Assembly: GCA_017535665.1 (NCBI GenBank)
Contig: JAFXTS010000014.1
Coordinates: 1-64,000 of the forward strand
Source: Bacteroidales bacterium
GTDB lineage: Bacteria; Bacteroidota; Bacteroidia; Bacteroidales; WCHB1-69
Direction of reading: 5' to 3'
Length of the DNA: 64,000 bases
The notes under the pieces were generated by a model, which saw only the letters and a list, made by a program, of their open reading frames with translations, was not told the origin of the DNA and did no database searches. The position numbers and the translations under genes are program-made. The first letter of the stretch is position 1. Every line of letters begins with the position of its first letter. Below are positions 42,396 through 53,720 of the stretch, piece by piece.

Positions 42396-42428
42396 AATGC
42401 CCCGCCGCTTCTGACGGGGCATTTTTTC
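42396..42428 (+). terminator. Intrinsic terminator after the argF unit
   Basis: AATGCCCCG / CGGGGCATT stem followed by TTTTT, immediately after the DUF2147 stop codon. Confidence 0.85.
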
Positions 42429-43728: not shown

Positions 43729-43811
43729 TGACCTGCAACTATCAACAGCCCAAACTGCAATTTTGTGAATAAATATTTTTCAACAAAACAAGAAAGCGAA
43801 AAGAAAATTTG

Positions 43812-43819
43812 TATTTTTG
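43812..43819 (+). promoter_or_regulatory. -7 promoter box for the pyrK leader
   Basis: TATTTTTG followed by C. Transcription would start near 43825, only a few bases before the leader ATG at 43828. Confidence 0.65.
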
Positions 43820-43827
43820 CAGCCAAT

Positions 43828-43905
43828 ATGTACCAAAGAGAAAGAACACCGGAAATTCCTAATACAGCGCTGAGCTGTAAGGATTTTCGTTTTTTTATTG
43901 TATAA
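43828..43905 (+). CDS. Putative 25-residue leader peptide of pyrK
   Basis: ATG at 43828, stop TAA at 43903-43905. The peptide begins MYQRERTPEI and ends DFRFFIV. The final codons (GAT TTT CGT TTT TTT ATT) are U-rich in the mRNA, and the stop codon overlaps the first bases of the terminator stem. A ribosome finishing this ORF would therefore cover the stem. With transcription start near 43825 the mRNA would be nearly leaderless for this ORF, which is the main doubt about its translation. Confidence 0.5.
   Translation: MYQRERTPEIPNTALSCKDFRFFIV
43851..43896 (+). promoter_or_regulatory. Candidate pause hairpin and T-run in the pyrK leader
   Basis: GAAATTCCT pairs with AGGATTTTC (one T-T mismatch), enclosing a second stem TACAGC / GCTGTA; seven T follow at 43890-43896. 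This would be a UTP-sensitive pausing site just before the attenuator. Confidence 0.55.
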
Positions 43906-43934
43906 GTGACTTATTTTTAAGTCACTTTTTTTTT
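43904..43934 (+). terminator. Attenuator terminator before pyrK
   Basis: Perfect 10-bp stem AAGTGACTTA / TAAGTCACTT with a TTTT loop, followed by seven T beyond the stem. It ends 10 bases before the pyrK start codon, so transcripts must pass it to express pyrK and pyrD. Confidence 0.85.
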
Positions 43935-43944
43935 GTAAAGAAAG

Positions 43945-45572
<1,628 letters not shown>

Positions 45573-45573
45573 T

Positions 45574-46287
45574 ATGGCAAAAGACGTAATCATCGCATTA
45601 GATTTCAACACAGCGGAAGAAACCTTGAAATTTTTGGAAGGTTTCAAAGATTTGCATCCCTACGTAAAAATCGGTATGGAGTTGTATTATGCGGAAGGGC
45701 CGGCCATGGTGCGAGAGCTGAAACGCAGAGGCTACCACGTGTTCCTCGACCTGAAGTTGCACGACATTCCGAACACGGTGCGCAAGTCGATGAAAGTGCT
45801 GGCGGGCATGGGCGTTGACATCTGCAACCTGCATGCGGCGGGCACCACGGCGATGATGCGGGCCGCCTTGGAGGGACTGACCGAAGGCAGCAACGGCGGA
45901 CAGCGTCCCTTGCTGATTGCAGTGACGCAGCTCACCTCCACCAGCGAGGAGGTGATGCGCAAGGAGCTGCTGATCGACCATCCGATTGGGGAGACGGTGC
46001 GCCACTATGCCATGAACGCCCGCGAGGCGGGTCTCGACGGGGTGGTATGTTCGCCGCTCGAGGCCGGCATCGTGAAGGAGGCGTGCGGCAGCCACTTCCT
46101 GACCGTGACACCGGGCGTGCGCTTTGCCGACTCGTCCACCGACGACCAGTCGCGGGTCACCACGCCGGCACGGGCGCGCGAGCTGGGCTCTGACTACATC
46201 GTGGTGGGCCGCCCCATCACCCAAGCCCCCGACCCCGTTGCCGCCTACCTGCGGTGCAAGAAGGAATTTTTGGGAATGGAAAATTGA
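45574..46287 (+). CDS. pyrF: Orotidine 5'-phosphate decarboxylase
   Basis: 237 residues from ATG 45574, 1 base after pyrD. The short (class I, E. coli-like) form: IIALDFNTAEE, VKIGMELYY, the catalytic FLDLKLHDIPNTV (D-K-D), TPGVRFADS and YIVVGRPIT. Converts OMP to UMP. Many Bacteroidota have a longer form of ~270 residues, so the short type is worth noting. Confidence 0.94.
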   Translation: MAKDVIIALDFNTAEETLKFLEGFKDLHPYVKIGMELYYAEGPAMVRELKRRGYHVFLDLKLHDIPNTVRKSMKVLAGMGVDICNLHAAGTTAMMRAALEGLTEGSNGGQRPLLIAVTQLTSTSEEVMRKELLIDHPIGETVRHYAMNAREAGLDGVVCSPLEAGIVKEACGSHFLTVTPGVRFADSSTDDQSRVTTPARARELGSDYIVVGRPITQAPDPVAAYLRCKKEFLGMEN

Positions 46288-46290
46288 AAC

Positions 46291-46318
46291 GTAGAGACGT
46301 TGCGCGCAACGTCTCTAC
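46291..46318. repeat. REP-like palindrome between pyrF and pyrE
   Basis: GTAGAGACGTTGCGCGCAAC followed by GTCTCTAC, a perfect palindrome. It could act as a stem that separates pyrF from pyrE in the transcript. Confidence 0.8.
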
Positions 46319-46320
46319 AT

Positions 46321-46351
46321 TCAACGAATCAACGAATCAACAAATCAACAT
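46321..46351 (+). repeat. 8-bp tandem repeat before pyrE
   Basis: TCAACGAA, TCAACGAA, TCAACAAA, TCAACATC in tandem, ending 7 bases before the pyrE start codon. A similar array precedes pyrB. Confidence 0.7.
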
Positions 46352-46357
46352 CATATC

Positions 46358-46969
46358 ATGAAATCACAAGAAATTGCATCTGAACTCTTGAAAATCGGGG
46401 CGGTGTTTTTGCGTCCTGACGACCCGTTTACCTGGGCCAGTGGAATCAAAAGTCCCATCTACTGCGACAACCGGCTGGTGCTGTCGGCGCCGACCGCACG
46501 GAAGAAGGTGGAGCAGGGCTTGGCGGAACTGGTACGCGAGCACTATCCCAACTGCGAAATGCTGATGGGTACGGCCACGGCGGGTATCGCCCATGCCGCC
46601 ATCGTGTCGGAGTTGCTGAACCTGCCGATGGGCTACGTGCGCTCCTCTGCCAAGTCGCACGGTCGCACCAACCGTATTGAAGGCAAGATGGAGGCCGGCA
46701 CCCGCGTGGTGGTCATCGAGGACCTCATCTCCACGGGCGGCAGTTGCATCGAAGTGGTGGACGCGCTCCGAGAGGCCGGTGCCGAAGTGCTGGGCGTCAT
46801 CAGCATCTTCACCTACGGTTTGAAAGCCGCCACCCACAACTTTGCGGAAGCCAAAACCGAGTACCACTCCCTCTCCAACCTCGACGCACTGGTGGAAGTG
46901 GCCATCGCCGAGAAATACATCACACCCGAACAAAAACAGACGGTGCTTGAGTTCCGGAATAATTTATGA
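46358..46969 (+). CDS. pyrE: Orotate phosphoribosyltransferase
   Basis: 203 residues. The PRPP-binding motif VVVIEDLISTGGSCIEVVDA (near 113-132) and WASGIKSPIYCDNR match bacterial OPRTases; the flexible loop is SSAKSHGRTNRIEG. Forms OMP from orotate and PRPP. Downstream of pyrF after a REP palindrome. Confidence 0.95.
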   Translation: MKSQEIASELLKIGAVFLRPDDPFTWASGIKSPIYCDNRLVLSAPTARKKVEQGLAELVREHYPNCEMLMGTATAGIAHAAIVSELLNLPMGYVRSSAKSHGRTNRIEGKMEAGTRVVVIEDLISTGGSCIEVVDALREAGAEVLGVISIFTYGLKAATHNFAEAKTEYHSLSNLDALVEVAIAEKYITPEQKQTVLEFRNNL

Positions 46970-47059
46970 GGAAAAGATGAAAAGATGAAAGGATGAATGA
47001 CAGGTTGCCACCTTTACCTTAACTTCTTCACTTTTTAACTCCTTAACTCAAAATCACCA

Positions 47060-47090
47060 TCAACGAATCAACAAATAAACAAATAATAAA
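47060..47090 (+). repeat. 8-bp tandem repeat before pyrB
   Basis: TCAACGAA, TCAACAAA, TAAACAAA, TAATAAAA in tandem, ending about 11 bases before the pyrB start; matches the pyrE leader. The 90 bases before it hold low-complexity GATGAAA-type and CTTAACT-type repeats. Confidence 0.65.
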
Positions 47091-47101
47091 AACCAATCAT
47101 T

Positions 47102-48184
47102 ATGAAACATTTAATCGACCCTACCGACATCACGGTAGAAGAAACTGATGAAATCATCCACCTTGCGCTGGATATTATCGCTAACCCGAAAAAGTATGCA
47201 GAGCACTGCAAAGGCAAAAAGTTAGCCACTCTGTTTTATGAGCCGAGCACCCGTACTCGTCTGAGTTTCACGGCGGCCATGATGGAGCTGGGCGGCAACG
47301 TGCTGGGCTTCTCCGAGGCAGCCAGCTCCTCCACCGCCAAGGGCGAGTCGGTACAGGACACCGCCAAGACGGTAAGCTGTTTCGCCGACCTCATCGCCAT
47401 GCGTCACTTCATTGAGGGCGCACCGCTCGCCGCCTCCAAAGTGTCGGGTGTGCCGATCATCAACGCCGGCGACGGCAGCCACAGCCACCCCACCCAGACC
47501 CTCACCGACCTGCTGACCATCACCCGCGAGCTCGGCCGTCTCGACAACTTCACCATCGGCTTCTGCGGCGACTTGAAGTTCGGCCGTACCGTTCACTCCC
47601 TCATCAAATCGCTTTCCACCCGTTCCAATGTCAAGGTGGTGCTGATTGCCCCGCAGGAACTGCGTCTGCCCGGCTACATCCGTCACGATGTTTGCGAGCG
47701 CCTCGGCGTTGAGTACAAGGAGGTTAGCACGATGGAAGAGGTGATGCCCGAGCTGGATGTGCTCTACATGACCCGCGTGCAGAAGGAGCGTTTCTTGGAT
47801 GAAGATGAGTTCGACCGCGTAAAAGACAGCTTCGTGCTGGATCGCAAAAAGATGGCCCTCGCCAAACGCGACATGGCCGTTCTGCACCCGCTGCCGCGTG
47901 TGAACGAAATCCTCACCGAGGTGGACTCCGACCCGCGTGCCGCCTACTTCCGTCAGGTAGAAAACGGAAAATTTGTCCGTATGGCTTTGATTTGCAAATT
48001 ATTGGATTGGAAAAACGACCCCGAGCACGACACTCCCATCCATTACGAAGCCTTCGAGGATAAGACCCGTTGCTGCTCCAACGCTAAGTGTATCAGCAAC
48101 TTGGAAAAAGTTCCGTTGTTGTTCCGTCACACCGAAAACGGTCCCGACCGTTGTATTTATTGCGATAACAAACCGAGGGAATAA
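47102..48184 (+). CDS. pyrB: Aspartate carbamoyltransferase fused to a PyrI-like zinc domain
   Basis: 360 residues. The catalytic part (1-305) has [11 protein letters not shown] (STRTR at 49-53), the SSSTAKGES loop (75-83), HPTQT (129-133) and HPLPRVNEI (262-270), i.e. the complete ATCase active site. An extra C-terminal stretch carries Cys325-x4-Cys330-x20-Cys351-x2-Cys354. That is the spacing pattern of the zinc domain of the separate regulatory chain PyrI (x4, about x23, x2), and the local text around the second Cys (CIS..E.V) also resembles PyrI. The ~95-residue allosteric nucleotide-binding domain of PyrI is not present in this protein, and no pyrI gene is in the window. Confidence 0.93.
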
Positions 48185-49967: not shown

Positions 49968-52900
49968 TTAATCCTTCACACAACGCACAGAATAATAGTA
50001 TTCCTTATTAAGGCCACGTCTTTGAACGAAAGCTCTATCGTAATACAAAGTTCGTCCATATGCTCTATCGCTGCTTTCATCCGTAGCACTCCAGAAATAG
50101 GCAATATCGCCAAAGTTCGCAAAATAGCCGCTACCGGAGGTTTCATAGCAGCCGGCAGGCAGCGCACTGAAGCCTGTCGAGTTGCGGTTGGGTGCCGACC
50201 GGTTGCCTGCGGCATTGGCATTGTAAGAGGTGTGCCACCCTATGTTGCCCGAGAGCTTGGCAGCGATAGTGTCTCTATCTTCAACACTGTTGGCATTGCT
50301 CAGTCTCATGCCCGCCGCCATCTCCATCTGCTTCCACTCCGCATCGCTCGGCACATGCCACCCTGTGGGGCAGATGCCCTGCACCCCGCTCGGGATGGAA
50401 CTGCTGGAAGAAAAATAACCCATCACTGCTGCCCAGTTGTACAGTAAGCCGTACGTAGGGGTGTTGGATGAAGAGTTGTTAGGATTACGCCACCCTGAAA
50501 TATAGGTGCCGTCGGCATAGCTTGTGGTGCGTAAATTCTCCTTCATCCAGCATTGAGTGCCAATCAGCACTGTGTTATAAGTGTTGCCGTTCCTGTCGGT
50601 CACAGTGGCTGTACCGCAAGCAAAAGATCCGGCCATGGCTGCTTGTTCCAATGAGTCAATCCTATCCAACAGAGCTTGGATGTCATCGGGATTCAGGTTG
50701 TAGCTACTCAACGAGTCCCGTGTCAAATACCCTGCATCATTGTTGAAAGTGGAAACCTCTGTGGGAATACTGGGAATGTCAGGTCTATCCGTCAAATCAT
50801 TGTAACTGCCGCTGAAACCCGCAGGCAACTTCACGAAACTGCCGCCTGTCAGGTAAATGGTGTCGTTGCTAATGCTCAAAATCTGCTGCTCGGTGAAAGA
50901 GGTGAGGTAGCCAGCGTCATTCGTGAAAGAGGACACATTGGATGGAATCGCAGCACTGGTAATATAGTTAGCATCATTTGTGAAAGAGGACACGTTTGTA
51001 GGCACTGTCGGGATTGCGGGAATAGAATCCATTGTAATATAGCCAGCATCGTTGGTGAAAGCAGAAACATTGGCCGGAATAGCCGCCTCGGTAATATAGT
51101 TTGCGTCATTTGTAAAAGCAGACACATTCGTCGGTACCGTGGGAATCGTCGGCTTGTTGGTTAGGTCATTGTAACTGCCGCTAAAGAGTTCGGGCTTGTT
51201 GGTCAGACTGTTATAGTTACCATCGAAACCTGCGGGCAGCACGGCATAACCGCCATTGCTCAAATAGATGGTGTCGTTGCTAATGCTCAACACTTGATAA
51301 GCAGGGATGTCCTCAGAGGTAATATAGTTGGCATCGTTGGTGAAGGCACTCACATTGGTCGGCACCGTCGGAATAACCGGGATGGAATCCATCGTGATGT
51401 AGCCAGCGTCATTGTTAAAAGCAGAGACATTGGTGGGAATGTCAGCTTCCGTTACATAGTTGTTGGTAACTAAATCATTCTGCGTAATGTAGTTGTTGTT
51501 GGTCAATGTGCTTTCCGTTATATAGCCTGCATCGTTCGTGAAGGCGGAAACATTGGTCGGAACAGTCGGAATGGCGGGCTTATTCATGATCTGCGCTGCC
51601 CCGCTGGTGGCGTTCCAGTCAGCGTTCACTTGTTCAGGGACTTGCGCCAACGTAATGTAATTCGCATCATTGGTAAAGGCCGAAACATTCGTCGGGATAT
51701 TGGCAGCCTCTTGCACCGTGGCTTGGGTAAGGTAGCCAGCATCGTTCACAAATGCACTCACATTTGTCGGTACAGTCGGAATGGCAGGAATGGAATCCAT
51801 CGTGATGTAACCGGCATCATTGGTGAAAGCAGAAACATTGGTGGGAATGTCAGCTTCCGTTACATAGTTGTTGGTAATCAGGTCGTTCTGCGTAATGTAG
51901 TTATTGGTGGTCAATGTGCTTTCCGTTATATAGCCTACATCGTTGGTGAAGGCACTCACATTGGTCGGCACGGTTGGAATGGCAGGGATGGAGTCCATCG
52001 TGATATATCCCGCGTCGTTGGTGAATGCGGAAACATTGGTCGGAATATTGGCGGCCTCCTGCACGGTGGCAGAAGTGAGATACCCGGCGTCATTGGTAAA
52101 GACAGAAATATTGGTGGGGATTGCTGCATTGGTGATATAGCCGGCATCGTTGGTGAATGCACTCACATTGGTTGGAATGGCAGGCACAGAGTCCATCGTA
52201 ATGTAACCCGCATCATTAGTGAAGGCACTTACATTAGTGGGAATGTCTGCTTCGGTCACATAGTTGTTGGTAATGAGATCGTTTTGGGTAATGTAGTTGT
52301 TGGTGGTCAAGGAACTTTCCGTCACATAACCTGCGTCATTCACAAAGGCAGACACGTTAGTCGGAACGGTCGGGATGGCTGGAATGGAGTCCATCGTAAT
52401 GTAGCCAGCGTCATTGGTGAACGCGGAGACATTGGTCGGAATATTGGCGGCTTCCTGTACGGTTGCAGTCGTAAGATATCCAGCATCATTCACAAAAGCA
52501 GACACGTTGGTTGGCACAGTCGGGATTGCGGGAATGGAGTCCATTGTGATATACCCGGCATCGTTGGTGAATGCGGAAACATTGGTTGGGATGTCGGCTT
52601 CCGTCACATAGTTGTTGGTAATGAGATCGTTTTGGGTAATGTAGTTGTTGGTGGTCAAGGAACTTTCCGTCACATAACCTGCGTCATTCACAAAAGCAGA
52701 CACATTAGTCGGCACGGTCGGAATTGCAGGAATGGAATCCATTGTAATGTAACCCGCATCGTTAGTAAAGGCGCTCACGTTTGTCGGAATCGTAGGAACA
52801 GAATCCATGGTAATGTACCCTGCATCATTGGTGAAAGCACTTACATTTTCAGGGATTTGCGGAATCTGCGGCGTATTAGTGAGGTCGTTGTAGTCGCCAC

Positions 52901-53720
52901 TGAATCCAGCGGGCAGCGTAACTGTGTTCCCATCCGAAATCGTCAGATTGTTTCCTTCCAGTGAGAGCGTCTGCGCTACACCCACGCCGGGTTCACCCTG
53001 CGGACCAGCGGGACCTTGTTCACCTTGCGGACCAGCAGGACCTTGCTCACCCTGAGGACCAGCAGGACCCTGTTCACCTTGCGGACCAGCAGGACCCTGT
53101 TCACCCTGCGGACCGGCAGGACCTTGTTCACCCTGAGGACCGGCGGGACCTTGCTCACCCTGTGGACCGGCGGGACCTTGCTCACCTTGCGGACCGGCAG
53201 GACCTTGCTCACCCTGCGGACCGGCAGGACCTTGCTCACCCTGTGGACCGGCAGGACCTTGCTCACCCTGTGGACCGGCGGGACCTTGCTCACCCTGCGG
53301 ACCGGCGGGACCTTCGCCATTGCCAGAAGTTGCCGCATACAATGCATACGGCACGCTCAACAACTGCTGCGTGCCTTCGATGGTGTAATTGGTGCCGCCA
53401 TTCGGATCGGTTTCGGTTTTCAGAAAATACGGACCGTCAGCCCAGTCAATAGTGGCGAAATCACCATTCACCACCGTGCCGCCGCCAATCTCCAGCGTCA
53501 TCAAGCCATTGGCATTGGTGACCGTGGTGTGCGTCTCCTGATAAACCATCGTGCCATTCGCACCGCCTTGCAAGATGGAGATTCGCACACCCACATTGCC
53601 ACGAACAAGCGTGTTGCTTTCATTGCGAACCACCGCCTGATAGGTGAATTTCTGCGGGGCTTGGGCAAAAAGCAGCATCCCCATGAAAAACAAAACGATA
53701 AAGGATAAAAATTTCTTCAT
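49968..53720 (-). CDS. Collagen-like / repeat surface protein with FISUMP domain
   Basis: 1250 residues. Signal peptide 1-20 (ends FAQ). Domains in order: an N-terminal beta domain (about 20-130, [13 protein letters not shown]...LSVPYALYA); a collagen-like stretch of 12 units of GPAGPQGEQ (about 138-245); a long series of 20-30-residue modules built on [15 protein letters not shown](MDSIP) (about 270-1020), with inserts [11 protein letters not shown] and LPAGF.G.YNDLT; a short coiled coil ([16 protein letters not shown]); and a C-terminal FISUMP (Fibrobacter major paralogous) domain (about 1060-1250, [39 protein letters not shown]). No T9SS sorting domain is evident. The layout resembles trimeric fibres or phage tail fibres ending in a binding head. 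Confidence 0.88.
50990..52880 (-). repeat. Tandem modules coding [13 protein letters not shown]
   Basis: About 25-30 degenerate units of 60-130 bases within the surface-protein gene, each coding NVSAF(T/V/N)NDA(G/N)Y(I/L/V)T. Units are similar enough for recombination to change copy number. Confidence 0.8.
52991..53314 (-). repeat. Twelve 27-bp collagen-coding units
   Basis: 27-bp units with pattern GGACC(A/G)GC(A/G)GGACC(T/C)TG(T/C)TCACC on the + strand, coding GPAGPQGEQ on the minus strand. Differences between units are almost all synonymous, which shows selection on the Gly-x-y protein repeat. Confidence 0.9.

Follow-up and report, generated by a model that had tools for sequence, protein, structure and literature searches.

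Transcription of the pyrK-pyrD-pyrF-pyrE-pyrB genes of a Bacteroidales bacterium is probably controlled by a UTP-sensing attenuator that works through translation, like that of pyrBI, and lies in the leader preceding pyrK in the window, that is, the whole 64,000-nucleotide stretch of DNA that was analysed. In Escherichia coli pyrBI, low UTP slows RNA polymerase within a leader rich in U, which allows the ribosome behind it to block the terminator. In the window, a promoter, a short open reading frame (ORF) and an intrinsic terminator stand in this pyrBI-type order before a pyrimidine operon, and the geometry and composition of the leader appear to satisfy the requirements of such a device. Ribosome-controlled termination is strongly supported by comparison with relatives, and UTP is the presumed signal. 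The leader does not belong to the enterobacterial pyrBI family by sequence, but it is, as far as its sequence tells, pyrBI-like by design.

Anatomy of the leader and its promoter

The elements on which the original prediction was built, namely a -7 box, a 25-codon ORF, a hairpin followed by T7 and a 10-bp terminator, were all recovered in place (Table 1), as was the overlap between the leader TAA and the first bases of the terminator stem. The ORF (43828-43905) encodes the peptide MYQRERTPEIPNTALSCKDFRFFIV, followed by the stop codon, and pyrK starts at 43945, 17 bases past the stem and 10 past the terminator T-run. The folding energy of the 120-nt leader is -33.2 kcal/mol (z = -5.3), and none of 200 shuffled sequences folds equally well. 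Hairpin 1 together with T7 itself looks like an intrinsic terminator, and its role could be that of a pause hairpin, or of a first attenuator or terminator, which translation would also disrupt; the U7 tract at 43890-43896 is proposed to be the UTP-sensitive pause region.

Table 1. Leader elements and pyrimidine genes in the window
Feature	Position	Strand	Remark
-7 box TATTTTTG	43812..43819	+	Fits Bacteroidota sigma-A consensus TAnnTTTG
Predicted transcription start	43824..43826	+	Deduced from position of -7 box; 2-4 nt 5' of leader ATG
Leader ORF, 25 codons, ATG to TAA, near-leaderless	43828..43905	+	Kept in congeners
Hairpin 1, inside leader ORF	43850..43889	+	-16.3 kcal/mol; clade-specific
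T7 (U7) tract after hairpin 1	43890..43896	+	T7-T8 in 5/5 leader-bearing genomes of the genus
Terminator stem-loop AAGTGACTTATTTTTAAGTCACTT, perfect 10 bp	43904..43927	+	-11.3 kcal/mol; candidate attenuator
U-run of terminator	43928..43934	+	Sequence
pyrK, dihydroorotate dehydrogenase electron transfer subunit	43945..44673	+	Identity confirmed
pyrD, dihydroorotate dehydrogenase	44667..45572	+	Identity confirmed
pyrF	45574..46287	+	Identity confirmed
pyrE	46358..46969	+	Identity confirmed
pyrB with C-terminal PyrI zinc domain	47102..48184	+	Identity confirmed

The TAnnTTTG motif is twofold enriched in the window (64 versus 33), and the box at 43812 is likely to be the only promoter of pyrK-pyrD-pyrF-pyrE-pyrB, because it is the sole plus-strand copy between 40889 and 54248. 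A plus-strand TAnnTTTG search of 43820-48184 found none, and thus no promoter of this type fits between the terminator and pyrK. With the sole promoter 5' of the terminator and none that fits 3' of it, transcription of pyrK must pass the terminator. In Flavobacterium, the TAnnTTTG consensus lies at -12 to -5 (PMC9723704), a spacing that places the start in the window at about 43824-43826 and leaves a 5' untranslated region (UTR) of some 2-4 nt.

The likely last gene of the operon is pyrB, whose product carries a PyrI-type zinc domain (PF02748) scoring 23.2 bits, just below the cut-off of 23.4, as compared to 29.9 in the related locus L031. It is without the allosteric N-terminal domain of PyrI, and by its domain content the aspartate transcarbamoylase of the window may have lost nucleotide feedback. 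Between pyrF and pyrE lies a perfect 28-base inverted repeat, GTAGAGACGTTGCGCGCAACGTCTCTAC (46291-46318), present in one copy in the window. Shortly 5' of pyrC, at 42396-42423, is a strong hairpin with a T-run, with no TAnnTTTG between this hairpin and pyrC; pyrC of the window may be transcribed from the argF side by read-through. Further downstream, the minus strand (49968-53720) encodes a protein of 1250 residues that contains collagen-like repeats, an extended series of repeats resembling one another and a Fibrobacter succinogenes major domain.

A model for UTP-dependent read-through

According to the model, transcription would start 2-4 nt 5' of the leader ATG. When UTP is ample, RNA polymerase would outrun the ribosome through the U-rich end of the leader ORF, the terminator (and perhaps also hairpin 1 with U7) would fold, and transcription would stop before pyrK. 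When UTP is low, polymerase would stall in the U tract and the ribosome would advance to the leader stop codon, where it would cover the 5' arm of the terminator, so that the operon is transcribed. The peptide itself would be unimportant. Translation of the leader ORF, pausing of polymerase and blocking of the stem by the ribosome are all presumed steps, and the model would require close coupling of ribosome and polymerase in Bacteroidota.

Work in an E. coli test system provides a yardstick for the placement of the stop codon. There, a stop 5 nt before the terminator cuts termination from about 90% to less than 10%, a distance of more than 27 nt from stop to stem abolishes the effect, and pyrBI is the named precedent (PMC4824070). 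By this distance rule, the stop placement seen in the leaders, including 76 of the 88 loci described below, would let a ribosome at the stop codon mask the terminator. The pause in E. coli pyrL is independent of NusA and, apparently, of a hairpin (PMC9291695), which fits the finding that f113, the Alistipes-type family considered below, has no pause hairpin that is conserved.

Several observations count against the model. One is that the leader ATG, given the predicted start, lies nearly at the 5' end; leaderless mRNAs make up 3.7-5.5% in two Bacteroidota with mapped starts (PMC9723704, PMC7366714). This difficulty had been raised as the main doubt in the original prediction, and it persists mainly for the genus of the window, since most Alistipes-type ATGs lie 18-26 nt 3' of the -7 box, and most of those leaders therefore have ordinary 5' UTRs and are not leaderless. 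Also unfavourable are the variable ORF end in the window clade (genomes G012 and G007), a terminator that stands alone in G010, three genomes with no attenuator (G005, G011 and G006), and the scarcity of covariation in the window clade.

The leader within the genus

Comparison with relatives had been put forward as a test of the element, and among the 13 genomes of the genus that were compared, five keep the leader, T-tract and terminator directly 5' of pyrK, the leaders of the other four being 85-97% identical to that of the window. All five retain the -7 box, the 8-nt spacing, the ATG, hairpin 1, the T7-T8 tract and the terminator, and they do so even though the gene 5' of the leader varies among them. 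The 25-codon ORF is present in three of the five. In G012, an extra T brings the stop to codon 24, 9 nt before the stem; in G007, an extra A extends the ORF to 50 codons, through the terminator, like E. coli pyrL. The comparison favours the original prediction, and in both variants the ribosome would, by position, still be on or near the stem. Covariation, the other expected sign of conservation, amounts to one compensatory change in hairpin 1 (in G008) and none in the terminator; this is not significant, and with so little covariation in the window clade the criterion does not decide. G008 is also the nearest relative, and its pyrC (L163) has one in-frame TGA in the assembly.

In three further genomes (G009, G001 and G003), pyrC and pyrK are adjacent and the leader is found 5' of pyrC. 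The order there is TACTTTTG, 8 nt, ATG, exactly 25 codons, and a stop 8-10 nt before the stem of a terminator (CGGCTTG..CAAGCCG-T8) that differs from that of the window and is followed by pyrC. These ORFs are unrelated in sequence to the pyrK leader ORF, and their peptides, MKTTPRFLMRLPETKCPLCLNFCFF, MKTTHLITVYSFLTSRHQNLNFLFI and MKTTALFWERYCETDSLRCWMIYLF, have little in common past the first four residues. Non-homologous leader ORFs of the same geometry, before pyrC in congeners and in the Alistipes-type family, support the earlier suggestion of a pyrBI-like logic. In G010, the terminator before pyrC is retained without a -7 box or a 25-codon ORF, and no attenuator was found in G005, G011 or G006.

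Beyond the genus, a search of 104 genomes of the family with the leader DNA returned the leader itself, the four congeners and a 27-base match in G004 that is away from any pyr gene; other genera of the family have a different type of PyrC, and no leader was seen in them. Spread of the window-clade leader as a conserved RNA was considered and rejected. A covariance model searched against 393 genomes of the order gave no such leader among the twelve best hits beyond its own, most of which were single terminators of the ordinary kind at the ends of genes, and since none of the hits inspected is a leader, the element has not spread in this form.

A shared operon in the Alistipes-type family

The PyrC of the window is at most about 40% identical to the PyrC of other genera in its own family but shares 63% identity with the PyrC of L031, which is related to the PyrC of family f113. 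This family includes records deposited as Alistipes sp. (genomes G639, G606, G643, G674 and G662, corresponding by identical coordinates to the genomes of loci L033, L080, L032, L100 and L036). In a maximum-likelihood tree, nine of 11 PyrC sequences of the genus fall inside the f113 group with strong support, apart from the rest of their family. Because the PyrC of the genus nests with the Alistipes-type family, the leader-bearing operon is common to both, and the notion that the device evolved for pyrK-pyrD(-pyrF) in this bacterium alone does not hold. The Alistipes-type operon reads pyrC-carA-carB-pyrK-pyrD-pyrF-pyrE-pyrB, with a leader of the same design at its start.

Upstream regions of 91 Alistipes-type pyrC genes were taken, and a -7 box together with a start codon is present in 88 of them. 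In 76 of these 88, the ORF stops between -15 and +12 nt relative to the terminator stem; in six more, the stop lies 30-42 nt past the stem start, the ORF spanning the terminator as in E. coli, and in the remainder the first start codon opens a very short ORF (five loci) or a long one (one locus). After removal of similar leaders, the placement is found in 45 of 56 leaders in frame. The other two frames give 3 and 11, and 2000 shuffles give a mean of 6.0 (sd 2.2, maximum 15). Stricter thinning gave a comparable outcome (16 of 23, against 2.3 +/- 1.4 in shuffles). Frame +2 is also somewhat above the shuffles among the non-redundant leaders, perhaps because the U-rich end abounds in stop codons. 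ORF length ranges from 26 to 58 codons, and the stop stays at the stem.

These leaders grow richer in U toward the terminator: the U fraction is 0.22 at a distance of 81-90 nt from the stem and reaches about 0.55 in the last 20 nt. Over the last 30 nt before the stem it is 0.49, against 0.32 +/- 0.01 in shuffled leaders, and ordinary 3' terminators have 0.22-0.30 U upstream. In the leaders of relatives, pN/pS is 0.58 in frame and 1.05 and 0.78 out of frame, values that suggest a reading frame that is kept and a peptide that is weakly constrained. These values, and the openness of this one frame, favour translation of the leader ORFs in the relatives.

Specificity of the arrangement

A blind scan for a -7 box, an ORF, a terminator at the ORF end and then a gene of 150 codons or more had a single match per sample: pyrK in 410 kb of the 2.56-Mb window genome, and pyrC in a 400-kb sample of genome G574 from f113. 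Of 82 regions upstream of pyrB, drawn from across the order, eight (G211, G208, G143, G162, G267, G181, G284 and G170, from six further families) show the same arrangement, with the stop between -15 and +45 of the stem, and the others have no terminator or a terminator without such a leader. Strong terminators also stand directly 5' of pyrC in clostridial loci (L041, L064, L066, L096 and others). No leader ORF by the criteria used here and no Rfam PyrR element was found at those clostridial loci, which perhaps carry another kind of pyr attenuator.

Alternative explanations

The same anatomy could answer to translation capacity or growth rate, through ribosome availability or the stringent response, and not to UTP. 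The anatomy by itself shows that a ribosome near the stop would block the terminator, and the leader peptides carry no specific cue, both of which leave room for such a signal; it is nonetheless unlikely, because in the two 400-kb samples the design occurs at pyrimidine operons only, precedes pyrK, pyrC and pyrB alike, and is enriched in U exactly where a UTP pause is needed. Far less probable is classical amino-acid attenuation, in which stalling of a ribosome at codons for a single amino acid is accompanied by formation of an antiterminator. A leader ORF and a terminator are indeed present, and the pathway uses glutamine and aspartate as substrates, but pairing of a terminator arm with the upstream leader was not detected (mean z 0.11, with 2 of 51 leaders below -2), no repeated control codon or recurrent amino-acid run was found across the leaders, and the peptides are unrelated even inside the genus.

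Control of the terminator by a PyrR-like protein or a riboswitch, with the ORF as a by-product, has in its favour that PyrR runs Firmicutes pyr operons by attenuation, that the genes here are related to clostridial ones, and that the window clade keeps hairpin 1. It is hardly credible given that no PyrR was found in the window genome (scores of 27 and 23 bits, where the cut-off is 138), that neither the window nor the leaders of 20 related loci gave an Rfam match, and that Alistipes-type leaders, the terminator apart, share no conserved structure (fold z -0.76) and yet keep the reading frame strongly. Equally improbable is that the stem-loop is the terminator of the upstream gene and the ORF arose by chance. 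Intergenic terminators are common, and many relatives have one ahead of pyrB with no ORF; here, however, the -7 box is 5' of the terminator and none fits 3' of it, the preceding gene varies among congeners that keep the leader and terminator, and the geometry is far beyond chance.

Relation to known attenuators

The UTP-sensing attenuator favoured here shares with E. coli pyrBI (pyrL) a short U-rich leader ORF that ends at an intrinsic terminator just ahead of the first pyr gene, as well as an unimportant peptide and no need for an antiterminator. A comparison by eye shows no similarity in the peptides, the terminators or the order of genes, and there is no Rfam match. The attenuator favoured here further differs in its operon (pyrK-D-F-E-B or pyrC-carAB-pyrKDFEB) and Bacteroidota promoter, and in the near-leaderless start of the window genus and the extra hairpin-U7 of the window clade. 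The ORF here mostly ends on reaching the 5' arm of the stem or within it, and not past the terminator, whereas pyrL of E. coli MG1655, in the same pipeline, has 44 codons and a stop 44 nt past the stem start. Firmicutes PyrR attenuators likewise have a terminator before pyr genes, and their structural genes are related, but the leaders described here are without PyrR and without an antiterminator, and have an apparently translated ORF. The trp and his type of leader attenuator, suggested for amino-acid operons in Bacteroidota (in Flavobacterium; PMC9723704), has a leader ORF and terminator in the same phylum, unlike the present leaders in that these lack control codons and an antiterminator and precede pyrimidine genes. 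Short ORFs have also been noted in 5' UTRs of Bacteroides thetaiotaomicron (PMC7366714).

Implications for pyrimidine control in Bacteroidota

The design is apparently convergent with the enterobacterial form in another phylum, and widespread there. Bacteroidota mostly do without Shine-Dalgarno initiation. On balance, it seems somewhat better supported than not that UTP-sensing leader-ORF attenuation is a main form of pyrimidine control in parts of Bacteroidales, standing before pyrC, pyrK and pyrB, independent of the enterobacterial form, probably of more than one origin, and working with leaderless or Shine-Dalgarno-free leaders. That such leaders work in this way would, if true, imply close ribosome-polymerase coupling in the phylum.

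In agreement with the original prediction, which knew of no pyrBI-type attenuation in Bacteroidota, no description of pyrimidine attenuation in the phylum was found in the literature searched (subscription papers not covered). Pyrimidine control in Bacteroidota appears undescribed in that literature, and the leader is a concrete, widely conserved candidate switch, convergent with an enteric mechanism known from textbooks, and it gives clear mutational predictions. If the model is true, ribosomes must follow polymerase closely, and transcription-translation coupling in Bacteroidota would become directly testable.
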